Below are positions 22,600 through 34,958 of a stretch of 64,000 nt of DNA, piece after piece; position 1 is the stretch's first letter, and each line of letters begins with the position of its first letter. The notes under the pieces were generated by a model. That model did no database searches. It saw nothing but the letters and a program-made list of their open reading frames with translations, and had not been told where the DNA came from. The translations under genes and the position numbers were made by a program. The stretch is from Thiolapillus brandeum (GTDB taxonomy: Bacteria > Pseudomonadota > Gammaproteobacteria > Chromatiales > Chromatiaceae). The stretch covers positions 1,674,001 to 1,738,000 of the forward strand of contig NZ_AP012273.1 in NCBI RefSeq assembly GCF_000828615.1, written 5' to 3'.

Positions 22600-23979
22600 T
22601 CAGGCTCTTTTAACCGGGGCAGCGGCCTCACCCAAGGCATGTTTTTTTATGAGGCGGTACACATGCCGTTCACTGATACCCATGATCTGTGCGACGGTAG
22701 CTCGATGTCCGGCATGTTTTTTCAATAACATCTTCAGGTAACTGGCCTCCAGCTCTTCAAGAGTGGGTGAGGCCCCGCCAGGCAAATCCAGTTGCAGCCC
22801 GGTTTCCTGTTGGCAGGCGCCAAATGTAAGGTGTTGGCTTCGGATCATCTTGTTCCTGCGCGAAAGGATAATCGCCCGTTCAACCACGTTTTTCAGCTCA
22901 CGCACATTGCCTGGCCAGTCATAGGCAATAAGCTTGCGCATCGCTTCCTTGGTAACGGTTTTTTTCACGCGCATGGAGAAGTTGTGATTTCTGATGAAAT
23001 GCTCTACCAACCAGGGTATATCCTCCCGGCGTTCCCGTAGCGGTGGTGCGTAAATGCTGAAGGCTTCCAGACGGTAGTAGAGGTCAGCGCGAAACTCACC
23101 ACTTTCGGACATCTTTTTCAGGTTTCGGTTGGTGGCCGCAACGATGCGCACATCAGAGTTCAGATCACGAGTACCGCCCACACGCCGGAACTTTCCGGTC
23201 TCCAGTACCCGCAACAGCTTGGCCTGTATGGGAGGGGGTATTTCACCAATTTCATCAAGAAACAATGTGCCCCCTGCCGCTCCTTCAATCAACCCCTTCT
23301 TTTTCCTGTCTGCCCCCGTGAAGGCCCCTTTTTCATGGCCAAACAGCTCGGATTCAAACAGGCTTTCCTGCAGGGTGCAGCAATCCACGGCCACAAAGTT
23401 TCGTTGCCTGCGCTGACTCTGGTCATGAATGGCACGTGCCACCAGTTCTTTGCCCGCACCACTTTCACCAAGCACCAGTACCGTGAGATCAGTATCTGCC
23501 ACAGCATCAATCAGCTCCTTTACCTGGTTGAGCGCATCACTCTGACCAATCATGTATGAGTGGGAGCCGGTTTGTGCCGCCAGGCGGGACTTGCAAAACT
23601 GATGGTCGTTGCGCAAAGCTTCCGTATCCAGCACCCTCTCAACCGTGAGGGAAAGTTCTTCCGGACTCACCGGTTTGGTCAGGTAATCTGCCGCCCCGGC
23701 ACGAATCGCCTCAACCGCATTCTTGACCGTGCCATAAGCCGTCAACACGATCACCGGGTGAGATTCGCCCAGACCCTGAAGTTCATCGATACAGTCGCCA
23801 TCAGGAAGACGCATATCGGAAATAATCAAGTCGGGCTCGTTCTTGTGCAACCAGACATGTGCTGATGCCAAATCTTCTACACCATGCCCCTGGTGTCCCA
23901 TGTATTCCAGTTGGCGCACAATCATGCGATTGAGCACTCGATCATCCTCGATCACCAGAATGTTGGCTTTCAATGCCAT
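22600..23979 (-). CDS. Sigma-54-dependent NtrC-family response regulator
   Basis: 459 residues. A receiver domain (1-120) has phospho-acceptor Asp55 in IISDMRLPDG. The AAA+ domain (about 140-375) has Walker A GESGAGKE (171-178), the sigma-54 contact loop GAFTGA (218-223) and Walker B LFLDEIGE. A Fis-type helix-turn-helix ends the protein (VAQIMGISERHVYRLIKKH). All parts needed to activate sigma-54 polymerase are intact. Its ATG overlaps the kinase stop by 10 nt, so the pair is co-translated. Two sigma-54 promoters with a shared upstream palindrome lie within 3.5 kb, across the divergent region, and are the obvious targets. Confidence 0.95.
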   Translation of the reverse strand: MALKANILVIEDDRVLNRMIVRQLEYMGHQGHGVEDLASAHVWLHKNEPDLIISDMRLPDGDCIDELQGLGESHPVIVLTAYGTVKNAVEAIRAGAADYLTKPVSPEELSLTVERVLDTEALRNDHQFCKSRLAAQTGSHSYMIGQSDALNQVKELIDAVADTDLTVLVLGESGAGKELVARAIHDQSQRRQRNFVAVDCCTLQESLFESELFGHEKGAFTGADRKKKGLIEGAAGGTLFLDEIGEIPPPIQAKLLRVLETGKFRRVGGTRDLNSDVRIVAATNRNLKKMSESGEFRADLYYRLEAFSIYAPPLRERREDIPWLVEHFIRNHNFSMRVKKTVTKEAMRKLIAYDWPGNVRELKNVVERAIILSRRNKMIRSQHLTFGACQQETGLQLDLPGGASPTLEELEASYLKMLLKKHAGHRATVAQIMGISERHVYRLIKKHALGEAAAPVKRA

Positions 23980-25826
23980 GCACTGTCCTCCGTAGCTTCG
24001 GGCAGGCTGACCAGAAAACTGCTCCCCTGCCCCACCCGGCTGGTCACACTCAGGGTTCCACCATAGGCTTTCACGATAGTCTTGGAAATAGACAGCCCAA
24101 GACCGGTACCATGAACACCATCTGCACGCCGACTGAAAAACGGCATGAAGATATAGGGCAGTTCATCTTCCGCAATGCCTACTCCCGTATCACTGATACG
24201 CACCAGCACCTGGCCGTCCAGGCACTCCACATGTACTTGCAACTCACCACCTTCCGGCATGGCATGGAAGGCATTCTGCACGAGATTGAGCATCAACATG
24301 CGTATTTCACTGCTGCTGGAAATAACCCGGACATGTTTCCCGGAATAGTGTTTGTGTATGCTGATTCCAGCCTGTTCCGCATCCCAACGCAACAGGCTGA
24401 GAGTGTCCGTCAACACTTCCTGTATATCCACCAGTTCCTCTTTTTCCAAGGGAGTGGCGCTGAGGCGCAACAACTTGTCCGTGATATGAATGCATTGATC
24501 CATCTCCTCCTCCACGATAGCAAGATCATCAGCGACATCAGAGGCATGACTGCTGTCCCGCTGCATGTTGAGCATGAGTGAATGCAATGCCAGCTTCATG
24601 GAGCTCAGGGGATTGTAGATTTCATGAGCCACCCCGGCGGCCAGCCTTCCCAACTCTGACAGCCGCTGTTCATGAGTAAAGCGTACTTCCTTGCTGAGGT
24701 CGCGAATGGATTCCACTACCAGCGTTTCTTCCCCGTCCTCTCTGGGTATGGTCATTGGAGCAGCATAGACTTCCACATCCAGGGAATCACCACCTTCGCA
24801 AACATGATGATGAATTACCTTCATGGGTTCCCCGGTGCGCTGTATTTCCTCCACGGGACAGGCATAGAGTTCAGAAGGACAAGGGGAATCCAGCCCGTGA
24901 GAAGCCGCGTAGCACTTACCACCCACCCGGGCGTCAGCACCACAACCTGCCTGTTCCAAAAACGTCCTGTTGACTAACAGCATGTTGTAATCCGCATCGA
25001 TAATACGCACGCCATCAGGAATGGCATCAATCATGGCCTGGAGAAACGCTTTGCTTTCATCCAGTTTGCGGGTATGTCTCTGAAGATTGTCGGCCATCTG
25101 ATTGAAAGTCTGCCCCAAACGAGCCAACTCATCATTCCCCGCAGCATCTACCCTGGCATCCAGCTCGCCTCTGGAAAGTGCCTGGCTGGTGCGGCTCAAA
25201 GAGGCAACAGGCTTGAGAATAAACCGCCGAATGAACCACCAACCACCAACGAGATTGACTATGACGATCAACGAGCCGGCTCCCATGAGCATTAAAGTGG
25301 TATTCCTCGCCTGCTGCCGGATGGATGTCGCATCATAGTCCACCAGCAGGATACCGTTGACGGGATGTTCCCTCATAGGCCCATGACACTGTTGGCAGGG
25401 CGCTTTGTTGTGGACAGGGTTTACACTGCGCAACACTTCACGTCCATGTACATCCCGGGTAAACAGGGTATGGGCTTTTTCACCGGTGACCATTGCAATG
25501 GGAAGCTTACGGCCTTCATCTTCCACCCGGCTGGCAAAACGCACTTCACCTTTGGGATTGACAATCATCACGGATGAAATATTGGGCTGCTTGCCCAGGT
25601 GACGAACGATATAGATCAGACCCGCCAGATCACGTTTCAACATGGCATTCTCCAGAGATGACTGGAGCAGATTGTTGACCTCACGAACCGCCTGGGCACG
25701 TTCCTGTTTCAGCTCTTCCTGATAGAAAGTCAGAAATAGCAGCATGAATACCACAGAACTCATCAGGAAACCCGCGATAGTGGCCACGGTGAATTTGTGA
25801 TTCAAGCTGTTTCCAAACCACGTCAT
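23970..25826 (-). CDS. Membrane histidine kinase with periplasmic c-type heme motif
   Basis: 618 residues. Helices at about 13-34 and 177-198 bracket a periplasmic sensor domain that contains CQQCH (Cys144, Cys147, His148), a c-type heme site in the context PVHNKAPCQQCHGPM. A HAMP domain (about 199-252) and a PAS domain (about 258-375) follow; the PAS domain carries a Cys cluster (Cys295, 305, 316, 323, 343). The HisKA domain has AAGVAHEIYNPLS (His401) and the ATPase domain NAFHAMPEGG, DTGVGI and GTGLGL. The Cys pair suggests sensing of redox state, a gas ligand or a respiratory substrate. It is encoded with the NtrC-type regulator downstream; GGAG precedes the ATG. Confidence 0.93.
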   Translation of the reverse strand: MTWFGNSLNHKFTVATIAGFLMSSVVFMLLFLTFYQEELKQERAQAVREVNNLLQSSLENAMLKRDLAGLIYIVRHLGKQPNISSVMIVNPKGEVRFASRVEDEGRKLPIAMVTGEKAHTLFTRDVHGREVLRSVNPVHNKAPCQQCHGPMREHPVNGILLVDYDATSIRQQARNTTLMLMGAGSLIVIVNLVGGWWFIRRFILKPVASLSRTSQALSRGELDARVDAAGNDELARLGQTFNQMADNLQRHTRKLDESKAFLQAMIDAIPDGVRIIDADYNMLLVNRTFLEQAGCGADARVGGKCYAASHGLDSPCPSELYACPVEEIQRTGEPMKVIHHHVCEGGDSLDVEVYAAPMTIPREDGEETLVVESIRDLSKEVRFTHEQRLSELGRLAAGVAHEIYNPLSSMKLALHSLMLNMQRDSSHASDVADDLAIVEEEMDQCIHITDKLLRLSATPLEKEELVDIQEVLTDTLSLLRWDAEQAGISIHKHYSGKHVRVISSSSEIRMLMLNLVQNAFHAMPEGGELQVHVECLDGQVLVRISDTGVGIAEDELPYIFMPFFSRRADGVHGTGLGLSISKTIVKAYGGTLSVTSRVGQGSSFLVSLPEATEDSAWH

Positions 25827-25985: not shown

Positions 25986-26001
25986 TGGCTCAACTTTTGC
26001 T
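25986..26001 (+). promoter_or_regulatory. Sigma-54 promoter 1
   Basis: TGGCTCAACTTTTGCT has GG (25987-25988) and GC (25999-26000) at the required 10-base separation and fits the -24/-12 consensus with changes only at less conserved positions. Transcription would start near 26012, about 50 nt before the secreted-protein gene. Confidence 0.75.
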
Positions 26002-27450: not shown

Positions 27451-27466
27451 TGGCACAAGGATTGCT
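27451..27466 (+). promoter_or_regulatory. Sigma-54 promoter 2
   Basis: TGGCACAAGGATTGCT is an almost perfect -24/-12 element, with GG and GC separated by 10 bases. Transcription would start near 27477 and run into the operon that begins at 27509. No terminator-like stem with a T tract is seen until past 34958. Confidence 0.88.
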
Positions 27467-27508: not shown

Positions 27509-27802
27509 ATGAAAAGTGCTTACCTTGCTTGTCTTGCAATCATACTTTCCACTCCCCTTTCATCCTATGCTGACAAATCCTATCCAGTTGCAGGAACCCA
27601 ACCCGATGCCCGGCCCGCAGGTGCACCTGTCATCGAATGGGTGAGACACGATCAGGCCTGGTTCAAGCACGCTCTGACCGGCATCCAGCCGCCTTTCCCC
27701 CGCAGCCTGTATTTTCTGGACAACCAGGGCAACTGGTACACCCCATTCAATCATCCTGGATTGACAGGCCCCTACGATATACGGGAATGGCATCAGAAAT
27801 AG
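27509..27802 (+). CDS. Small exported protein, unknown function
   Basis: 97 residues with a clear signal peptide (MKSAYLACLAIILSTPLSSYA, cleavage before DKS). The mature part of about 76 residues is rich in Pro, Trp, Tyr and Phe, with WVRHDQAWFKHAL and FLDNQGNWYTPFNHPG. No Cys or heme motif is present. The ATG at 27509 was chosen over an upstream in-frame start, because that one would include the predicted transcription start. It is the first gene after sigma-54 promoter 2 and so presumably part of the inducible redox system. No family is recognised. Confidence 0.7.
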   Translation: MKSAYLACLAIILSTPLSSYADKSYPVAGTQPDARPAGAPVIEWVRHDQAWFKHALTGIQPPFPRSLYFLDNQGNWYTPFNHPGLTGPYDIREWHQK

Positions 27803-27892
27803 CTATCACTTTCAGCCTGAACATTGTTGTTCACCGCTGGAATACACATCACGAGCATAACGCTCAGTATTACCCCAATCAGGAGGAACACC

Positions 27893-28537
27893 ATGAAGAC
27901 ACGAATGTGCAAAATAACCAAACAGATTAGAAAAGCCGTAGGTATTGCAGCCCTCATCAGTACCGCTATGGTCACCACTGCCAGTGCAAATATGTACGGC
28001 ATGTCCGGGATGAACGGCATGGGTGGCATGAACGGTATGTCCGGCATGAATGGCATGGGCGGTATGTCCGGCATGGGCGGTATGAATGGCATGAATGGCA
28101 TGTCCGGCATGAATGGCATGTCCGGCATGAACGGCATGAACGGCATGTCCGGCATGAACGGTATGTCCGGCATGAACGGTATGTCCGGCATGGGCGGTAT
28201 GTCCGGAATGGGCGGTATGTCCGGAATGAACGGCATGTCCGGCATGTCCGGCATGAACGGTATGTCCGGCATGAACGGTATGTCCGGCATGGGCGGTATG
28301 TCCGGCATGGGCGGTATGTCCGGCATGAGCGGCATGGCCGGCATGAGCGGCTACTTCAAGATCACCCCCCAGGGTCAGATCTTCTTTTACCCGGCAACCG
28401 GCATGAGTGGCATGTCCGGCATGAGTGGCATGTCCGGCATGGGTGGCATGTCCGGCATGGGTGGTATGTCCGGAATGAACGGTATGTCCGGCATGAACGG
28501 CATGGGCGGCATGTCCGGAATGAACAGCTGGAAATAG
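27893..28537 (+). CDS. Exported Gly-Met-X repeat protein
   Basis: 214 residues from an ATG preceded by AGGAGG. A signal peptide ends at TASA (residue 32). The mature protein is almost entirely the triplet Gly-Met-X with X = Ser, Asn or Gly: 39 triplets at residues 36-152, then a short non-repeated piece (GYFKITPQGQIFFYPAT, 153-169), then 14 more triplets and SWK. Roughly one residue in three is Met. Sulfur globule coat proteins of Allochromatium are also exported Gly-rich repeats, but they use Tyr/Asn, not Met. Cu(I)/soft-metal binding or a structural coat for an elemental chalcogen are guesses. It lies in the DmsA-like operon. Confidence 0.85.
   Translation: MKTRMCKITKQIRKAVGIAALISTAMVTTASANMYGMSGMNGMGGMNGMSGMNGMGGMSGMGGMNGMNGMSGMNGMSGMNGMNGMSGMNGMSGMNGMSGMGGMSGMGGMSGMNGMSGMSGMNGMSGMNGMSGMGGMSGMGGMSGMSGMAGMSGYFKITPQGQIFFYPATGMSGMSGMSGMSGMGGMSGMGGMSGMNGMSGMNGMGGMSGMNSWK
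27998..28525 (+). repeat. Nine-base coding repeat array (Gly-Met-Ser/Asn/Gly)
   Basis: Two arrays of 9-bp units (27998-28348 and 28400-28525) of the form GGC-ATG-TCC/AAC/GGC with silent third-base changes. The strict 9-base phase gives an open antisense frame reading MPDIP-type repeats, which is an artefact. Such an array can expand or contract by slippage. Confidence 0.85.
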
Positions 28538-28548
28538 GAGCTAACCAG

Positions 28549-28581
28549 AAACCGGGGTGCAGGGAAGCACTAACCCGGTTT
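28549..28581 (+). repeat. Intercistronic hairpin before the cytochrome gene
   Basis: AAACCGGG pairs with CCCGGTTT, enclosing GTGC/GCAC. It lies 12 bp after the Gly-Met-X gene and has no T tract. It could protect the upstream mRNA and raise the yield of the repeat protein over the downstream enzyme genes. Confidence 0.6.
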
Positions 28582-28621
28582 CGCAGCTTTCAAGTCTGAT
28601 TGAATATCAGAGGTCAAGCAC

Positions 28622-29413
28622 ATGAAGAAAACAACTTTGCTCACAGCATTGCTGGTCACGTCCATTGGGACAGCCCCCCTGTTAGCGGCAGAAAATGAAC
28701 AAGCCGGGAAACAACTCCGTGCAGCTTGGGATCCGATCCATTTTCAACCCGCCATAGCAAATGCAACCAATGCTCAATGTCTGAAATGTCACAAAGAAAT
28801 CCTGGACAGAAAAGTGCTGCCCGCCTCACCCGCCGGCGTGAAATCAGATTCTGTGCTTGCATGGTATCAAACCTTGAATACCTATGAAGGCCCCCAGGAA
28901 ACTTTTCATCGACGCCATCTCGTCACACCCTACGCAAAGAAAGTGATGAAGATGAAATGCAATACCTGTCATCAGGGTGAAAACCCGCGGGAGGAAGCTC
29001 CCATCCCCCCCGATCAGAAAAACACTGATTTCACTCTGCGCAAACAGGTCAATCCGGAAACCTGTCTTATGTGCCATGGCAGCTTCCCGGACTATAAGCG
29101 CATGGGGCTGCCTTCACACTGGAACGAGTCCCGTGACATGTTCCAGGACAACTGTCTGGTGTGCCATGCCGGAATTCGTACCAATCGGCACAAGGTGAAT
29201 TTCCTGAACCCTGAAGCGATTGAAGCGGCAGCACAAGGCAATGCTGACGTATGCTTTGGTTGCCATGGTGGCCGCCAGTGGTATCGAATCAGCTACCCCT
29301 ATCCCCGCCATCCCTGGCCAGGTATGGCCAAGGAGGTTCCCGACTGGGCCAAGGATCGCCCCACCGAATCCCCGGAGCGCTTCCGCATCCATGAACAGGA
29401 GGCGAAAAAATGA
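28622..29413 (+). CDS. Periplasmic pentaheme cytochrome c
   Basis: 263 residues with a signal peptide ending at LLAAE. Five CXXCH motifs are present: CLKCH (53), CNTCH (113), CLMCH (148), CLVCH (178) and CFGCH (211). Extra His residues (for example HRRH near 96-99) could be distal heme ligands. The layout resembles NrfB/multiheme electron-transfer proteins, but the length is larger than NrfB and I cannot assign a subfamily. Its stop overlaps the DmsA-like start by 4 nt (ATGA), so it is coupled to that enzyme and is the likely electron donor or acceptor in place of a DmsC membrane anchor. Confidence 0.9.
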   Translation: MKKTTLLTALLVTSIGTAPLLAAENEQAGKQLRAAWDPIHFQPAIANATNAQCLKCHKEILDRKVLPASPAGVKSDSVLAWYQTLNTYEGPQETFHRRHLVTPYAKKVMKMKCNTCHQGENPREEAPIPPDQKNTDFTLRKQVNPETCLMCHGSFPDYKRMGLPSHWNESRDMFQDNCLVCHAGIRTNRHKVNFLNPEAIEAAAQGNADVCFGCHGGRQWYRISYPYPRHPWPGMAKEVPDWAKDRPTESPERFRIHEQEAKK

Positions 29414-32007
29414 CCACGCGAGATACCCCTATGAGCAAGACTCCCCATTTCGAGGAACTGCAGCAGCGTCTCAACCTGTCACGGCGCAGCTTCCTCAAGA
29501 CCACTGCTGCCGGTGCCGGCATTGCCGCCGCTGGCGGCTTGGTGGAACTGAAATTTGGCAAGGAGGCACAGGCTTTTGCCTACGAGCCTTATCCACTGGA
29601 TAACCAACTGGAAACTGTGGTTACCAGTTGCGCCCACAACTGTGGATCACGCCATATGTTAGTGGCGCACAAGTGGAAGGATGTCATCGTGCGCCTATCC
29701 ACGGATGATGGCCGCTATCAACGCGGAGGGCATTTTGGCAAGGATGGCAATGAAGAGCCACAATTGCGTGCTTGCCTGAGGGGGCGCTCTTATCGGCAGC
29801 GCCTTTACTCTGCAGAACGACTACTCTATCCCATGCTGCGTGTGGGTGAACGCGGTGAAGGCAAATTCAAGCGCGTGTCTTGGGATGAAGCCCTGACCTT
29901 CATCACCAAAAAGATGGTACATCTCAAGAACACCTATGGTCCCACATCCATTCTCGATCAAAGCTATGCCGGTGCATCCTATGGTGTACTTCACAAGTCT
30001 GATCAAATCGAAGGATTGTTGGGTCGTTTCCTGGGAATGTTTGGCGCCCGTACCAGCTCCTGGTCCGTGCCTTCCTACCAGGCAACAACCACGAGTTCCC
30101 GCTGGACTTTTGGCACTATCCGCGACGGGAATGAGGATGACACTTTTGCCGAATCCAAGTTGATGATCATGTGGGGTTGGAATCCCGCCTACACCTTCCA
30201 TGGCGGGAACACTTTCATGTACCTGCGTATGGCCAAGCAGCGTGGCTGCAAATTTGTCATCATCGATCCCCAGTATACGGACTCCGCCTCCGCTTACGAT
30301 GCCTGGTGGATCCCCATCAAGCCCAATACCGATGCGGCCATGATGGCAGGAATGGCGCATCACATATTCTCCAACAACCTGCAGGATCAGGAGTTCATCG
30401 ACAAGTTCTGTATGGGCATGGATGCCGGCACCATGCCCAAATGGGCACCCGACTCTGCCAATGGCAGGGAGAACTTCAAGGACTACATCCTCGGCAAATA
30501 TGACGGCGAGCCGAAAACACCGGAGTGGGCTTCCAGGATCTGTGGCGTACCGGCAAAGGACATTGTCAAGCTGGCCGACATGTATGCCAAGACCAAACCA
30601 GCAGCCTTAAAGGCGTCTTGGGCGCCGGGACGCAACGCCTATGGAGAACAGTACAGCCGTATGGCTGCTGCCCTGCAGGCCATGACAGGCAACATCGGCA
30701 AGCTGGGTGGTTGTGCCGAAGGCGTAGGCAAAGGCTGGCATGCGGAAGCCGTAGCCTATCCCTACGACAACTATGCCAACATCTGGTTCCAGTCCATTAA
30801 ATCAGATCGCTGGGCTCACTGTGTCCTCAACTATCCCAATGTCAAACGGGAGGAAATCGGTCTCTGGCCCCGTCAGGACGATACCGATGGCCAGATCCCC
30901 AACATCAAAGGCATTTTCTGGCAGGGATCCGACTGGTTCAACCAGCTCACCAACATCAACAAGGAAATCCAGGCCATCAAAAAACTGGAGCTGGTAGTGT
31001 GCATGGATTCAACCATTACACCCTCCGGCATCTGGGCGGATGTACTCCTTCCTGTGGCCACGCACTTTGAACGTCATGATGTGGCCCTGCCCTGGTACAA
31101 GGGGCATTACTACATTCACCGTCCCAAAGTCATCGAACCCATGGGTGAATCCAAAACCGATTTCCAGATCTTTACCGAACTGGCATATCGTCTCGGTGGT
31201 GACGTATTCGGTAAGGCTTACAACCCCAAAGCCAATCGTGACTATTTCAATGTCAACGACAATGTGGATGAGGCCTATCTTCGTGAATGGTGGGAAGGCA
31301 AAGTCATGCATCACCAGGGCGTGGACATGAGCTGGGATGATTTCAAGAAGTATGGAGTGTACAAGTTCAAACTGGATCGTCCCCATGTCGCTTTCCAGGA
31401 TCAGATTGAAAAAGGCGTACCCTTCCAGACACCCAGTGGAAAGATAGAGATTCTCAGTTCAGAACTGGCCAATATCGATGACTGGACAAAGACCAAGTAC
31501 GGCTACCATATCCCCTCGATTCCAAAATGGATAGAGCCGTGGGAGTCTCTGAACAGCCCGAAGACGAAGAAGCATCCTTTCCACCTCATATCGCCGCATC
31601 CCCGTTGGCGCACTCACTCCATCTTCAACAACTGCGCCTGGTTGCGGGAGACCTACGAGCAGGAAGTCACCATCAATGCTGCCGATGCGAAGAAGCTGGG
31701 CATAAAGATGGGCGATATCGTGGAGCTGTGGAATGATCGGGGGAAGGTGGTGGTTCCTGTATATGTGACAGAACGCTGTATGCCCGGAGTGTTGGTTCTG
31801 CACGAGGGTGTGTGGATGGATCTGGATAAGAACGGCGTGGATCGTGCCGGTAATCCCGATTTTCTCACATTGGACAACCCCAGTCCCGCCGGTGCTTTTG
31901 CCTACAACACTGTGCTTTGCAATATCCAGAAAACAGATCTGGAGCACCGACCTGGATGGGACAAGCTGTCCACGTCCCGAGCCCACATATTCAGGCGTGA
32001 CGACTGA
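29410..32007 (+). CDS. DmsA-like molybdopterin oxidoreductase, catalytic subunit
   Basis: 865 residues, Tat-exported (SRRSFLKTTAAGAG at 24-37). It aligns along its length with E. coli DmsA: LRACLRGRS, YPMLRVGERGEGKFKRVSWDEA, IIDPQYTDS, TPSGKIEI and MPGVLVLHEG. The Mo ligand position corresponds to Ser222 (SVPSYQ), as in DMSO/TMAO reductases. The N-terminal Fe-S site reads C74-x3-C78-x3-H82 ... C122, so His replaces the third Cys of DmsA. It is encoded with a DmsB-like subunit and a TorD-like chaperone but without DmsC. Substrate unknown: DMSO, another S/N-oxide, selenate, or an oxidation in the reverse direction are all possible. Confidence 0.92.
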   Translation: MTTRDTPMSKTPHFEELQQRLNLSRRSFLKTTAAGAGIAAAGGLVELKFGKEAQAFAYEPYPLDNQLETVVTSCAHNCGSRHMLVAHKWKDVIVRLSTDDGRYQRGGHFGKDGNEEPQLRACLRGRSYRQRLYSAERLLYPMLRVGERGEGKFKRVSWDEALTFITKKMVHLKNTYGPTSILDQSYAGASYGVLHKSDQIEGLLGRFLGMFGARTSSWSVPSYQATTTSSRWTFGTIRDGNEDDTFAESKLMIMWGWNPAYTFHGGNTFMYLRMAKQRGCKFVIIDPQYTDSASAYDAWWIPIKPNTDAAMMAGMAHHIFSNNLQDQEFIDKFCMGMDAGTMPKWAPDSANGRENFKDYILGKYDGEPKTPEWASRICGVPAKDIVKLADMYAKTKPAALKASWAPGRNAYGEQYSRMAAALQAMTGNIGKLGGCAEGVGKGWHAEAVAYPYDNYANIWFQSIKSDRWAHCVLNYPNVKREEIGLWPRQDDTDGQIPNIKGIFWQGSDWFNQLTNINKEIQAIKKLELVVCMDSTITPSGIWADVLLPVATHFERHDVALPWYKGHYYIHRPKVIEPMGESKTDFQIFTELAYRLGGDVFGKAYNPKANRDYFNVNDNVDEAYLREWWEGKVMHHQGVDMSWDDFKKYGVYKFKLDRPHVAFQDQIEKGVPFQTPSGKIEILSSELANIDDWTKTKYGYHIPSIPKWIEPWESLNSPKTKKHPFHLISPHPRWRTHSIFNNCAWLRETYEQEVTINAADAKKLGIKMGDIVELWNDRGKVVVPVYVTERCMPGVLVLHEGVWMDLDKNGVDRAGNPDFLTLDNPSPAGAFAYNTVLCNIQKTDLEHRPGWDKLSTSRAHIFRRDD

Positions 32008-32024
32008 TCCCGGAGGACAAGAAC

Positions 32025-32693
32025 ATGGCTACTGAAAAAAAAGACGTGAAAAAAATCCGGGAAGCGGTCAAGCGCGTGAAACGCGCCACCTATACTCCGG
32101 TAGAACCCGACATGCAGTTGGGATTCATCCATAACAACGTGGACTGTATTGGCTGTCGGGCCTGCGAAATGGCCTGCAAGGACAAGAACGGCCTGCCACC
32201 AGGGCCGCGTTTCCGCCGGGTACAGTATATCGAGGGTGGCACTTACCCTGACGTATTTGCCTATAAGGTAAACATGAGTTGTAACCATTGCGCGGAACCC
32301 GCCTGCCTGCCCACCTGCCCCACTGGCGCCATCTTCAAGCGCAAGAAGGACGGCATTGTGGACATCGATTCAACCTTGTGCATCGGTTGTCGGCGTTGCG
32401 AGGCAGCCTGCCCCTTTGGCGCACCTCAATTCGATCCCATCGAAAAAATCGTCAAGAAATGCAACATGTGCGTAGACGAGATCGAAGCCGGGCGCAAACC
32501 CTACTGCGTCATGGCCTGCATGATGCGCGTATTGGACATCGGCCCCATAGAGAAAATATGGGACGGCAGCCTGGAAACCGTTGCCATCGGCAAAGCCGAC
32601 AAGGTTTCCCGCCAGGTGAAGAACATGGCCAATATCGAGTTGACCAAACCTTCCATCGGGTTTGTGGTGCATCGCAAGGGTAAGGTCAAATGA
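32025..32693 (+). CDS. DmsB-like four-cluster ferredoxin subunit
   Basis: 222 residues, electron-transfer partner of the molybdoenzyme. Four [4Fe-4S] sites are visible: Cys41/44/47/51, Cys86/89/94/98, Cys119/122/125/129 and Cys146/149/161/165. The segments FRRVQYIEGG, SCNHCAEPAC and CIGCRRCEAACPFGAPQ follow DmsB closely. There is no signal sequence; it would cross the membrane with the Tat-bearing A subunit. The N-terminus has an extra Lys/Arg-rich stretch of about 25 residues. GGAGG precedes the ATG, and the stop overlaps the chaperone start by 4 nt. Confidence 0.94.
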   Translation: MATEKKDVKKIREAVKRVKRATYTPVEPDMQLGFIHNNVDCIGCRACEMACKDKNGLPPGPRFRRVQYIEGGTYPDVFAYKVNMSCNHCAEPACLPTCPTGAIFKRKKDGIVDIDSTLCIGCRRCEAACPFGAPQFDPIEKIVKKCNMCVDEIEAGRKPYCVMACMMRVLDIGPIEKIWDGSLETVAIGKADKVSRQVKNMANIELTKPSIGFVVHRKGKVK

Positions 32694-33442
32694 CGCCGCA
32701 ACAAACTCAAACTCTGCGTATGTTTTGCGAGTACGCCGCCGAGGATCTGGAATTGCTGGCAGCACTTCATGATCATGAACCCGACGCTGCTACTTTAGAA
32801 GGACTGCGCAAACTCGATTTCCCCCAAAACCTGGGGCTGCACCTGGCAACCAAAGAGGGTTTGCGTGCGCTGGAGCTCATGACCCAGGCCCTGGTGGCAC
32901 TGCCTCAGCCTCCAGAGAGTGCCGATCTCAACGAGTTGGCCGCTGACTATGCCAGCATCTATCTCAACCACGGCATCCAAGCCTCACCGGAAGAATCCGT
33001 GTGGCTGGATGACGATCATCTGATCTGCCAGGACAGCATGTTTCAGGTACGGAGCTGGCTGGAGAAATACGGTTTGCAGGCAGAGAACTGGCGCATACGG
33101 CCTGATGATCATCTTGTCTATCAGCTCAAGTTCATCGCACATCTGCTCACTCGGGACGAAGACCTGCTGCAACAGGCAGGCTGTTTCATGGACGAGCATC
33201 TGTTGCGCTGGATCGGAGATTTCTCCCAACGTGTGTTGCAGCGTTGCGCCACTCCTTATTTCGCCGGGCTGGCACTGCTTACGGCCGCCTATTGCGAGGA
33301 ATTGCGTGACCTCATTGCCGGAGTCACGGGCCAACCCCGCCCGCTCCCCGAAGAAATCGAGGAACGCATGAACCAGAAGGTAACTTCCCAGGTGGAGGAA
33401 CAACCCGGCGCCTATGTCCCCGGCATAGGCCCCACTGTTTGA
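32690..33442 (+). CDS. TorD/DmsD-family molybdoenzyme chaperone
   Basis: 250 residues, all-helical, with the family features LAADYASIYLNHG, SPEESVWLDDDHL and QDSMFQVRSWLEKYGL followed by PDDHLVYQLKFIAHLL. Such proteins bind the Tat signal of the catalytic subunit and hold it until cofactor insertion is finished. The start overlaps the ferredoxin gene (ATGA). A C-terminal tail of about 40 residues beyond the usual fold (MNQKVTSQVEEQPGAYVPG) is unexplained. Its presence implies cytoplasmic maturation of the DmsA-like enzyme before export. Confidence 0.9.
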   Translation: MTPQQTQTLRMFCEYAAEDLELLAALHDHEPDAATLEGLRKLDFPQNLGLHLATKEGLRALELMTQALVALPQPPESADLNELAADYASIYLNHGIQASPEESVWLDDDHLICQDSMFQVRSWLEKYGLQAENWRIRPDDHLVYQLKFIAHLLTRDEDLLQQAGCFMDEHLLRWIGDFSQRVLQRCATPYFAGLALLTAAYCEELRDLIAGVTGQPRPLPEEIEERMNQKVTSQVEEQPGAYVPGIGPTV

Positions 33443-33484
33443 TCAGCAATTGACAGACGAATAAACCGCTACGGAGAAAACAAC

Positions 33485-33874
33485 ATGTCCAAGATATCCT
33501 CACGATTCACAAAATACCTGGGCGCAGCCCTGTTGATCTGCGCGCCCTGTAGTTCCGTGCTTGCGGGCGATGCCGCCGCGGGCAAAGCCCTCTATGACGG
33601 CAAAGGCGCCTGCGCCGGCTGTCACGGCCCGGCGGGTGCTGGTGATGGCGCAGCAGCCGCCGCACTGAACCCAAAACCGGCCAACTTTGCCGCGGGCGCG
33701 TTTCGCCTGGACACCAATGGTAACGGCACACCTGGTGAAGATGCCGACCTGGCTGAGGTTATAAGGAAGGGTGGTGGCACCTTTGGCGGCAATGCAGCCA
33801 TGCCCGCACGAAGTGATTTCTCCGATGACGAAATCGCTTCCCTGATAGCGTATATCCGTTCATTGAAAAAATAG
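33485..33874 (+). CDS. Periplasmic monoheme cytochrome c
   Basis: 129 residues, signal peptide ending at VLAG. One CAGCH (Cys43, Cys46, His47) with a likely axial Met105 in NAAMPARSDF, and the C-terminal helix IASLIAYIRSLKK of class I cytochromes. Sequence is rich in Ala/Gly around the heme. It sits 42 bp after the chaperone gene and probably shuttles electrons between the pentaheme cytochrome or molybdoenzyme and the respiratory chain. GGAG lies before the ATG. Confidence 0.92.
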   Translation: MSKISSRFTKYLGAALLICAPCSSVLAGDAAAGKALYDGKGACAGCHGPAGAGDGAAAAALNPKPANFAAGAFRLDTNGNGTPGEDADLAEVIRKGGGTFGGNAAMPARSDFSDDEIASLIAYIRSLKK

Positions 33875-33914
33875 TTCTTTGTATTGGTATGCGCCCCCAC
33901 TCGGGTAATGCAAG

Positions 33915-34958
33915 ATGGCTGGCTATCCTGAAATATCACCCAATTACTGCGTGCATGGACAGATCAGCAACGCCAGCTGTCAGGCCTGTGTGGAGGCTTG
34001 TCCCCATGGTGCCTGGATACTGGACGAGAATTCACTGGGGCTGGACGAAGACGCCTGCAATGGCTGTGGGCTTTGTGTACCGGCCTGCCCCAGTGGGGCC
34101 TTGCACACCCACTATCCCTATGTGATCCGGCATATCGGCGGCCAGGCCGTTGCTCTGTTCGGGTGCCGGCAATCAGGCGCCGGGGGAACTGAAGCCAGCA
34201 TATCCTGTGTACACAGCCTGGGGGTTCGGCAACTTCTGTTGCTTCATACCATCGGCATCAACTGCCTGCTACTGACTGAACACCACTGTGAGACCTGCGC
34301 CAATCAGCCTGAGCAAGGGCTGGAGCAGAGAGTGGAACAGTTGAACCACCTGCTTCGTGAACGCCACCTTCCCCTCATAAAGCTTTTGTACCGCCCCACT
34401 CGCGTGTGGCGGGCAATTCTCAAACAGGAAGCGCTCATCACCCGCGGCACCCTGCTCAATCGCAGGGCATTCCTTGCCGGGGCTTCGTCTTCCCGGGTAT
34501 TGCAGGAGCAAATGGTGAGCATGGATCCCCTGAACCGGCAGGAGTGCCGAACAGTGGCACCGGGGATGTTGCTGGATACCGAAAGCGGCATTCATCATCT
34601 GCCCTGGGTTCCCCATATTGACGCCACCCGTTGCACAGGCTGCGATGTCTGTATCAACCTCTGCCCTACCCAGGCACTGCATTATGAAACCGATCAGGAC
34701 GAACCCCGATACCAGATGGATGCGCCGCGCTGCTCAGGCTGTGGAATTTGTGTCGATGTTTGTAGTGAACAAGCCACCCGGCTACAGGCATGGGGGACAT
34801 GGATGGAACAAAGCCTGCCGCTGAATGAGGCCCTTTGCAGCAGGTGTGGCAACGCCTTCCATGTTCCCGGGGAAAATGATGGCTGCAATACCAACCTCTG
34901 TCCTGTGTGCCGCGCATCAGGCAGCAAGCAGCTTTTTCAGGTACTGGGCGCCGCCTGA
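33915..34958 (+). CDS. Polyferredoxin with C-terminal Cys ribbon
   Basis: 347 residues, no signal peptide, so cytoplasmic. An N-terminal ferredoxin pair (CQACVEACP and CNGCGLCVPACP) and a second pair near 230-280 (CTGCDVCINLCP and CSGCGICVDVC) flank a middle domain with more Cys (ISCVHSLG, HHCETCANQ). The end has CSRCG ... CNTNLCPVC, which resembles a zinc ribbon or rubredoxin-like site. The first cluster lacks one Cys of the standard spacing; Cys12 may supply it. It recalls NapF-type accessory ferredoxins, possibly delivering electrons or assembling Fe-S clusters for the DmsA-like enzyme. It is the last clear gene of the sigma-54 operon. Confidence 0.8.
   Translation: MAGYPEISPNYCVHGQISNASCQACVEACPHGAWILDENSLGLDEDACNGCGLCVPACPSGALHTHYPYVIRHIGGQAVALFGCRQSGAGGTEASISCVHSLGVRQLLLLHTIGINCLLLTEHHCETCANQPEQGLEQRVEQLNHLLRERHLPLIKLLYRPTRVWRAILKQEALITRGTLLNRRAFLAGASSSRVLQEQMVSMDPLNRQECRTVAPGMLLDTESGIHHLPWVPHIDATRCTGCDVCINLCPTQALHYETDQDEPRYQMDAPRCSGCGICVDVCSEQATRLQAWGTWMEQSLPLNEALCSRCGNAFHVPGENDGCNTNLCPVCRASGSKQLFQVLGAA

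Follow-up and report, generated by a model that had tools for sequence, protein, structure and literature searches.

The serine-ligated (Ser-type) molybdoenzymes related to dimethyl sulfoxide (DMSO) reductase are S- and N-oxide reductases. In Shewanella DmsEFABGH, DmsAB is fed by multiheme cytochromes, with no DmsC in the chain, and DorA and TorA work without an Fe-S partner. Rhodovulum sulfidophilum DdhABC is a periplasmic DMSO-reductase-family enzyme acting on cytochrome c; it is of type II, with an Asp ligand and a heme b subunit. MsrP (YedY) is an unrelated, sulfite-oxidase-type molybdoenzyme, with neither an Fe-S nor a pentaheme chain. Here, we analyzed a 64,000-nucleotide stretch of Thiolapillus brandeum DNA (C1:1674001-1738000 of a 3.15 Mb genome in three contigs; hereafter the window), which encodes a DmsA-like enzyme together with a pentaheme cytochrome c and a secreted Gly-Met-X repeat protein, GMX. 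This module is real, conserved and mobile; within the DMSO reductase family it is a variant whose protein partner is striking. Its gene set, the clade formed by its enzyme and the co-occurrence of enzyme and GMX are firm, and we hypothesize that the substrate is methionine sulfoxide carried by GMX rather than DMSO.

Compared with Escherichia coli DmsABC and YnfEFGH, the T. brandeum module has the same predicted Ser-type Mo subunit with a twin-arginine translocation (Tat) signal, a DmsB-type Fe-S subunit and a TorD/DmsD-type chaperone, but it lacks DmsC, has His for the third Cys of the FS0 cluster, adds the pentaheme cytochrome and GMX, and falls into a separate clade. Like DorCDA and TorCAD, it combines a Ser-type enzyme with genes for a TorD-type chaperone and a five-heme cytochrome; TorC, however, is N-terminally anchored, whereas the T. 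brandeum pentaheme has an apparent cleavable signal instead. With the Shewanella system it shares a DmsAB pair on multiheme cytochromes without DmsC, but the pentaheme, which has five CxxCH only, scores 31.5 against the cut-off of 192.2 of the decaheme DmsE model (TIGR03508), and no porin partner was recognized by eye, without a profile search, among the shared neighbours. Cytochrome c coupling is a likeness to DdhABC, although the T. brandeum enzyme is far under the type II cut-off. Finally, MsrP/MrpX offers the precedent of a molybdoenzyme beside a secreted Met-rich protein serving as a renewable Met sink (PMC4623255), but the present enzyme belongs to PF00384/PF01568 and not to the MsrP family, GMX is a long, regular Gly-Met-X polymer, and the hosts differ.

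Results

Gene organization of the module

The module comprises the following features, given in window coordinates.

22600-23979, minus strand: NtrC-type sigma-54 response regulator (PF00158, 234 bits; PF00072, 73.6 bits)
23970-25826, minus strand: sensor histidine kinase (HATPase/HisKA/HAMP/PAS) with one CxxCH (heme c) in its N-terminal, probably extracytoplasmic part
25986-26000, plus strand: sigma-54-like -24/-12 site with one mismatch, 5' of P280
26061-26843, plus strand: P280, exported protein (alignment, model, weak PepSY_2 likeness)
27451-27465, plus strand: sigma-54 -24/-12 site TGGCACAAGGATTGC, 43 bases 5' of the P108 start
27509-27802, plus strand: P108, small exported protein of 97 residues (24-sequence alignment)
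27893-28537, plus strand: GMX, secreted Gly-Met-X repeat protein of 214 residues (composition, co-occurrence)
28622-29413, plus strand: pentaheme cytochrome c with an apparent cleavable signal (five CxxCH)
29410-32007, plus strand: DmsA-like molybdopterin subunit with the Tat signal SRRSFLK (PF00384/PF01568)
32025-32693, plus strand: DmsB-like Fe-S subunit with four Cys motifs (by eye) and no own signal seen (TIGR02951)
32690-33442, plus strand: TorD/DmsD-family maturation chaperone (PF02613, 75.2 bits over a cut-off of 22.2)
33485-33874, plus strand: monoheme class I cytochrome c with an apparent signal peptide (PF00034, 48.8 bits)
33915-34958, plus strand: polyferredoxin with several [4Fe-4S] motifs and no export signal seen (PF00037, 71.6 bits)

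The eight genes from P108 to the polyferredoxin had been described in a first-pass annotation as a redox operon without DmsC, and all of them are present on the plus strand at these positions. The description of the genes was correct but the unit is larger, as it also includes P280 and the two regulatory genes from 22600 onwards. The kinase and regulator genes are divergent from P280, and 4-base overlaps occur between the pentaheme gene and dmsA and between dmsB and torD. Because the gene order recurs in distant bacteria, the set is more than a chance arrangement. A conserved cluster (c16) and minus-strand clusters that emerged from the shared-neighbour comparison were set aside, as we read them as shadow frames of GMX or other genes.

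GMX accompanies the enzyme and conserves its methionines

GMX contains 57 Met and 66 Gly. Its occurrence was followed in two samples of genomes, a relatives draw (55 genomes), in which GMX was called by at least six matches to a five-fold Gly-Met codon pattern, and a class draw (369 genomes), searched with a seven-fold Gly-Met pattern. In the relatives draw, GMX was called in 16 of 17 enzyme carriers and in none of the 38 others (Fisher p 6e-13), five of which show a single match. In the class draw, the pattern was found in all 16 carriers versus 5 of 353 others (p 5e-24). As related genomes are not independent, both p values are overstated.

We then considered what is conserved within the repeats. 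In 61 reading frames, many of them cut by contig ends, the Met position is occupied by Met in 3261 of 3466 Gly-x-x triplets; Leu occurs there twice, Ile, Val and Phe never, and the commonest non-Met residues are Q, Y, W and N. In the same frames, Gly uses all four of its codons and Ser all six. Because Met is close to invariant, with Leu, Ile, Val and Phe practically excluded, while adjacent Gly and Ser codons vary freely, the Met thioether itself, rather than bulk, seems to be selected. Some species have a GMX with over 100 methionines. A purely structural or hydrophobic fibre was judged unlikely, since those four residues almost never replace Met, and an antisense artefact was rejected because the apparent signal peptide, the start and the synonymous codon variation fit the plus-strand frame. 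GMX scores 57.6 bits with the collagen model PF01391 (cut-off 27.2), which on our reading would reflect periodicity alone; Pro is found once in 3466 triplets at each of the two non-Gly positions, and the collagen-like models SclA, SclB and Lcl are far below cut-off. In genome G016, GMX came up at extra places (C61 versus C1), most likely because a contig end within the repeat divides a single cluster. Elsewhere, a stand-alone GMX-like protein with 23 repeats lies beside a VWA-like protein (L119, 5698-6120), with no dmsA in the 9 kb examined; that genome carries the enzyme at another place.

GMX appears to be linked to the two exported proteins encoded upstream. In genome G144, GMX contains the C-terminal domain of P280 (E 2.3e-20), and in genome G065 the P108 homologue ends in a GM-rich tail. 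On account of these fusions, each from one genome, GMX, P280 and P108 look like one extracytoplasmic assembly. In its alignment, P280 consists of three alpha-beta-beta repeats and a C-terminal alpha-beta4 domain; its structure model has a mean predicted local distance difference test (pLDDT) score of 70.8, rising to about 90 over the last 70 residues. PepSY_2 (PF13670) was matched by 8 of 18 P280 members at E<=1, at best with 7.5e-6. A Foldseek search with P280 returned nothing at E<=0.001, the best hit being the YpeB C-terminal domain at 0.14, and a PDB sequence search gave one match at E 0.084. P108 has the invariant motifs RP..AP, PF...G and YD.R; it has no Pfam, NCBIfam or PDB match, and its low-confidence structure model was too poor for a fold search. 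Separately, a conserved segment, YFKITPQGQIFFYP, interrupts the GMX repeats at 28352-28393 of the window; inspected by eye, it looks similar to DGSxLLYP, with which the P280 repeats end.

The enzyme forms a clade beside DmsA, YnfE and YnfF

The catalytic subunit is about 36% identical to that of E. coli DmsABC/YnfEFGH over 95% of the protein. In a tree of 32 rows, with DmsA/YnfE/YnfF and alphaproteobacterial DmsA as outgroups, the 22 sampled family members are split off with 100/100 support, on a branch 2.07 changes per column long. The matches listed in the two genome draws are at least 71% or at most 37% identical, with none between; the class draw listed matches at E<=1e-80 only and taken alone cannot exclude members between 37% and 71%, while the relatives draw listed those at E<=0.001. 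On this sequence evidence the DmsA-like enzyme is its own clade beside DmsA/YnfE/YnfF. It scores 623.5 bits with the DmsA/YnfE model TIGR02166, under the curated cut-off of 777.7, and the DmsB-like subunit scores 188.8 bits with the DmsB model TIGR02951, under the cut-off of 214.1. The closest named NCBIfam models are DMSO and selenate reductases, including the selenate/tellurate reductase YnfE, whereas the type II model gives 237 against a cut-off of 985.

Members of the clade were obtained from a scan of GTDB species genomes, in which stretches were retrieved through six peptide patterns; the best 80 of 110 stretches were kept, corresponding to 78 distinct loci. Ser222 is invariant in 80/80 members and aligns with E. 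coli DmsA Ser176 and DorA Ser147, which we take to be Mo ligands. A Ser ligand to Mo, the criterion of type III enzymes, is thus predicted for the DmsA-like enzyme. The FS0 motif reads C-x3-C-x3-H...C in 79 of the 80 members, the remaining one (L090) being truncated before the first Cys, and the third ligand position is His in all 80 (His82 in T. brandeum). As one of the retrieval patterns (HMLVAHKW) spans this very His, it was rechecked on independently found loci: it is present in 18 of 19 loci from a whole-genome search, some of them in the same genomes, the 19th being unparsed. By contrast, all seven DmsA/YnfE/YnfF outgroups have Cys where the clade has His; in the two alphaproteobacterial ones among them the FS0 motif is C-x4-C-x3-C. 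The FS0 cluster of the clade may be of a 3Cys/1His kind, with this His as a putative ligand. The SYGW motif of DorA corresponds to SYAG here, with Tyr186 and, at the place of the DorA Trp, Gly188 conserved in 80/80 members.

The module is conserved and mobile

The 78 other loci encode relatives 73-96% identical to the T. brandeum enzyme, most with the same neighbours. Their labels include Thiolapillus, Sedimenticola, Ca. Thiodiazotropha, tubeworm and clam symbionts, Thiobacillus, Sulfuritalea, Thiomargarita, Rhodobacterales and Hyphomicrobiales, although some public labels are plainly wrong (e.g., Clostridia, Dichelobacter, Exiguobacterium). Neighbour, motif, sigma-54 and GMX counts exclude L001-L021, which are copies or other MopB (molybdopterin-binding) genes. 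Among 40 loci with at least 3 kb of upstream flank, the window included, the pentaheme is present in 40, GMX in 37, P108 in 36, the kinase in 28 (18 upstream and 10 downstream of dmsA) and P280 in 21. Among 65 loci with at least 3.5 kb of downstream flank, DmsB is present in 65, TorD in 62, the polyferredoxin in 51 and the monoheme cytochrome in 26.

The module moves as a unit. On pEJ01, a Rhodobacter xanthinilyticus plasmid typed as conjugative, a single run of genes encodes the DmsA-like enzyme (75.5% identity) together with a P108 homologue (E 3.6e-33), GMX, a fused cytochrome, DmsB-like, TorD-family and 4Fe-4S proteins, a CxxCH kinase and a sigma-54 regulator. In the tree, alphaproteobacterial enzymes nest among beta- and gammaproteobacterial members, which argues for horizontal transfer. 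We conclude that this is a horizontally transferred, self-contained periplasmic module of mostly sulfur-oxidizing bacteria. Regarding sulfur oxidation, soxB exceeds its cut-off in at least 11 of the 16 class-draw carriers versus 148 of 369 genomes overall, a mild enrichment (p 0.007-0.02) that was too modest for us to keep a specific SoxB link. A replacement of MsrP, which T. brandeum encodes elsewhere (C1:1835481), was discarded for lack of association (MsrP in 10/17 carriers and 21/38 non-carriers, p 1.0). Although soxY-S1c has been reported near 'DMSO reductases' (PMC11237559), a SoxY partnership was dropped for the present locus, since a crude GGCG/GGSG C-terminus search of the loci, made without a profile, gave one unconvincing open reading frame (L084).

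Several loci differ from the window. In Thiodiazotropha and tubeworm symbionts, we observed a second paralogue type (L078 6714-14825, L080, L066, L077), which comes with a diheme cytochrome c; the tail of this cytochrome contains GM motifs and 'FRVTPxGEI' and in this is similar to the GMX linkers. No TorD match was found in the DNA examined of L077, L078 and L080, and a CRP/FNR-like regulator lies near dmsA in L066, L078 and L080, as also in L041. In 19 loci, many of them Thiodiazotropha (e.g., L039 15673-17265), a lipoprotein-like protein of ~530 residues, absent from the window, follows the cluster, mostly ~5.7 kb past the dmsA start; by eye, it has a thioredoxin-like CxNC and NHL-like repeats. 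An exported-looking family of 162-185 residues is located between dmsA and dmsB in L068 (5350-7563, four genes) and L072 (4746-5297, one gene), and was seen in no other loci.

The electron path probably leads to cytochrome c

No DmsC is encoded in the operon, and the sole PF04976 match in the whole genome, at C1:741591, sits directly behind its own MopB (983 residues) and Fe-S (240 residues) genes. A co-regulated dmsC gene elsewhere would have spoken against the first-pass reading, and this single one is part of another MopB operon, possibly that of the SreABC homologue given in PMC4136832 or one of the SoeABC type. That operon (C1:737890-742565; L120 5891-10566) encodes a MopB protein without visible signal, an Fe-S protein and the DmsC-family protein behind a CRP-like regulator, and its MopB and Fe-S proteins are under every NCBIfam cut-off listed. 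Near dmsA, a crude hydropathy count revealed a protein with at least five transmembrane segments in 4 of 65 loci (L032, L064, L073, L087).

Among the 77 pentaheme homologues, five CxxCH are present in 66, six in nine and four in one; the last, a fragment, contains a single CxxCH. The T. brandeum protein scores 21.2 with the NapC/NirT model PF03264 (cut-off 24.1), aligns with TorC in short weak pieces only (best E 0.019), and gave one match in a PDB sequence search (E 0.0059), which we took for chance. An N-terminal class I cytochrome c (PF00034, E<=1e-4) is found on eight of the nine six-heme proteins and on the R. xanthinilyticus protein, whose hydrophobic N-terminus we read as similar to the one in cytochrome c-y. 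Among the nine six-heme loci, eight are labelled alphaproteobacterial and the ninth, labelled Exiguobacterium, groups with Rhodobacter; other alphaproteobacterial loci have the plain five-heme form. Given this fusion in some loci, electron exchange between the enzyme and the cytochrome c pool is probable. The conserved set, this fusion and the lack of a spare dmsC support the first-pass view of a periplasmic enzyme wired to c-type cytochromes and able to work in either direction, gene content being neutral on direction. The polyferredoxin is probably cytosolic and outside the periplasmic wire, since no export signal was seen on inspection, without a signal predictor.

A heme-c kinase and sigma-54 sites precede the module

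All 35 kinase homologues aligned over at least 550 residues, the T. brandeum one included, have exactly one CxxCH within the first 300 residues, and the regulator gene adjoins that of the kinase in related loci too. The site TGGCACAAGGATTGC at 27451-27465 is the sole exact sigma-54 match in the window. Among 38 loci with P108 and flank, the corresponding site is exact in 17, has one mismatch in 11 and is worse in 10. A site with at most one mismatch therefore precedes P108 in 28/38 loci versus 0.5% of shuffles, and P280 in 12/20 loci versus 0.6% of shuffles (-250 to +60 of the start of the open reading frame; the shuffles keep base composition only). Scanning the whole window at up to two mismatches gave no excess (80 found versus 94.7 expected), so the case for sigma-54 rests on position and conservation. 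Given the conserved kinase CxxCH and these sites, a heme-sensing kinase driving sigma-54 promoters is well supported as a prediction.

Discussion

What does the enzyme act on? In our leading reading, held with low confidence, it would be an S-oxide oxidoreductase connected to the cytochrome c pool, with the methionine sulfoxide of GMX as its probable partner substrate. In this scheme, the heme-c kinase would sense the periplasmic redox state or an oxidant and, via sigma-54, turn on P280, P108, GMX and the enzyme. GMX would present many methionine thioethers outside the cytoplasm, which oxidants would turn into methionine sulfoxide, and the enzyme would re-reduce them with electrons of the cytochrome c pool through the pentaheme and the Fe-S clusters. 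Because oxidized Met would be reduced again, GMX would constitute a renewable thioether sink, for which P280 and P108 would be the scaffold. The same enzyme may also accept free methionine sulfoxide or DMSO. The Ser at the DmsA/DorA ligand position, the co-occurrence of GMX with the enzyme, the near-invariance of Met in the repeats and the gene fusions speak for this proposal, as do two reports: in vitro, Rhodobacter sphaeroides DorA acts on methionine sulfoxide within proteins and reduces it (PMC7402097), and in perchlorate reducers the methionine-rich peptide MrpX is paired with the molybdoenzyme YedYZ (PMC4623255). With this precedent of a molybdoenzyme and a Met-rich partner, reduction of methionine sulfoxide in GMX is the reading we favour. 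The stricter form, in which protein-borne Met/MetO (methionine sulfoxide) of the secreted polymer, and not a small molecule, would be the physiological substrate of a DmsA-sister enzyme with a 3Cys/1His FS0 on cytochrome c, making up a renewable thioether redox system, is possible but doubtful.

Several observations weigh against GMX as the substrate. Class I cytochrome c has a potential of about +250 to +350 mV and sulfoxides of about +160 mV. On these values the former would be ill suited to donate electrons to sulfoxides, and this speaks for oxidation or for a stronger acceptor; as far as potentials go, we lean the same way. The SYGW motif, deemed necessary for sulfoxide reduction in the DorA study (PMC7402097), is absent, as it is from E. 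coli DmsA. MsrP coexists with the enzyme in many carrier genomes, without exclusion, and repeat homogenization could exaggerate the conservation of Met in GMX. Lastly, the co-occurrence has exceptions. One of the 17 relatives-draw carriers (G011, a genome 89% complete in which a contig end interrupts dmsA) lacks the GMX pattern, GMX is unmatched by BLAST in 3 of 40 loci, and 5 of 353 enzyme-less genomes have a GMX-like pattern, one of these being 55% complete and two having only one or three matches.

The first alternative, which we regard as unlikely, is a dissimilatory DMSO reductase that passes electrons from quinol or cytochrome c to DMSO in anaerobic respiration, GMX having an unrelated envelope role. 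Its closest named models are indeed DMSO and selenate reductases, the Ser ligand position fits, and such genes have been read this way (PMC11237559, PMC5728499, PMC6872982). However, the DmsA-like and DmsB-like subunits both fall below the curated cut-offs, the unit has no quinol-oxidizing anchor of the DmsC or TorC/NapC type, and GMX is left unexplained. Moreover, the acceptors of T. brandeum, whose strain Hiromi 1 has two plasmids, are given as oxygen and nitrate, and 'DMSO' is absent from the main text of the genome paper (PMC4136832), so that it was apparently not among the acceptors tried there.

Next comes the reverse direction, again unlikely and ranked behind DMSO respiration, in which a thioether dehydrogenase would oxidize dimethyl sulfide (DMS) or a comparable reduced sulfur compound, and an oxidase or reaction centre would receive the electrons by way of Fe-S clusters, pentaheme and cytochrome c. 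The N-terminal class I cytochrome c domain of some pentaheme homologues agrees with such a flow, as do the carriers, by label mostly sulfur oxidizers, with soxB in at least 11 of the 16 from the class draw, although that enrichment is mild (p 0.007-0.02). But the known DMS dehydrogenase is of type II with an Asp ligand, and this reading provides no reason for GMX. In its favour, a gene that is probably this one is highly expressed in symbionts that also express oxidases (PMC6872982).

That the enzyme reduces an oxyanion or oxidant of high potential (selenate, tellurate, iodate, chlorate, reactive oxygen or chlorine species) appears improbable. Cytochrome c would suffice as its donor, GMX would shield the periplasm from side products, the selenate/tellurate reductase YnfE is among the NCBIfam neighbours, and the conjugative-plasmid copy resembles mobile respiratory islands; however, no chlorite dismutase or peroxidase was recognized by eye, without a profile search, among families present in at least six loci, and the hosts by label share sulfur oxidation rather than such acceptors. 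Least probable is that GMX acts by binding, its Met arrays holding Cu(I)/Ag(I) or elemental sulfur/polysulfane, with the enzyme either repairing this binder or acting on what it has bound: Met at even spacing (MxxM) is a motif for soft metals, many carriers are known to store sulfur, T. brandeum has three Sgp homologues (PMC4136832) and periplasmic Met repair of a copper chaperone is documented (PMC9302797), but sulfane chemistry is carried out by Cys-type enzymes and is not known for Ser-type Mo centres, and no copper exporter or oxidase was recognized by eye among families in at least six loci.

How do these genes appear in the literature? DMSO respiration was inferred for Ca. Venteria ishoeyi from dmsA and dmsB, with reference to the DMSO reductases of Thioploca ingrica (PMC5728499), and in the lucinid symbiont Ca. 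T. endoloripes a DMSO-reductase-like gene, among the most highly expressed, was read as DMSO respiration (PMC6872982). The single strong match in the genome named Ca. T. endoloripes is a member of the present family (L037), which makes it probable, though not certain, that the highly expressed gene belongs to this family. The operon goes unmentioned in the energy-metabolism section of the T. brandeum genome paper (PMC4136832), and no mention of GMX or of the module was found in the literature searched, which covered freely available papers, not throughout as full texts. The first-pass annotation called the operon undescribed-looking, which agrees with this silence on GMX and the module, whereas dmsAB or DMSO-reductase-like genes as such had already been reported in such bacteria (PMC5728499, PMC6872982, PMC11237559); it also named, as refuting its reading, a known DmsA family with the same pentaheme partner and an established substrate, and as no established substrate was found, its reading is not contradicted. 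That reading was of something real, but overlooked the heme-c kinase, the sigma-54 sites, the FS0 His and the tie between enzyme and GMX. The module is probably annotated under a name that hides it.

The GMX pairing, the FS0 His and the plasmid copy in the cultured R. xanthinilyticus make the substrate question directly testable. If the partner is not GMX methionine, a highly expressed enzyme of a chemosynthetic symbiosis is without a demonstrated substrate. If it is, the DMSO-respiration physiology assigned to sulfur bacteria and lucinid symbionts would be wrong, and the symbiont 'DMSO reductase' would instead be a periplasmic antioxidant or redox-buffer machine.

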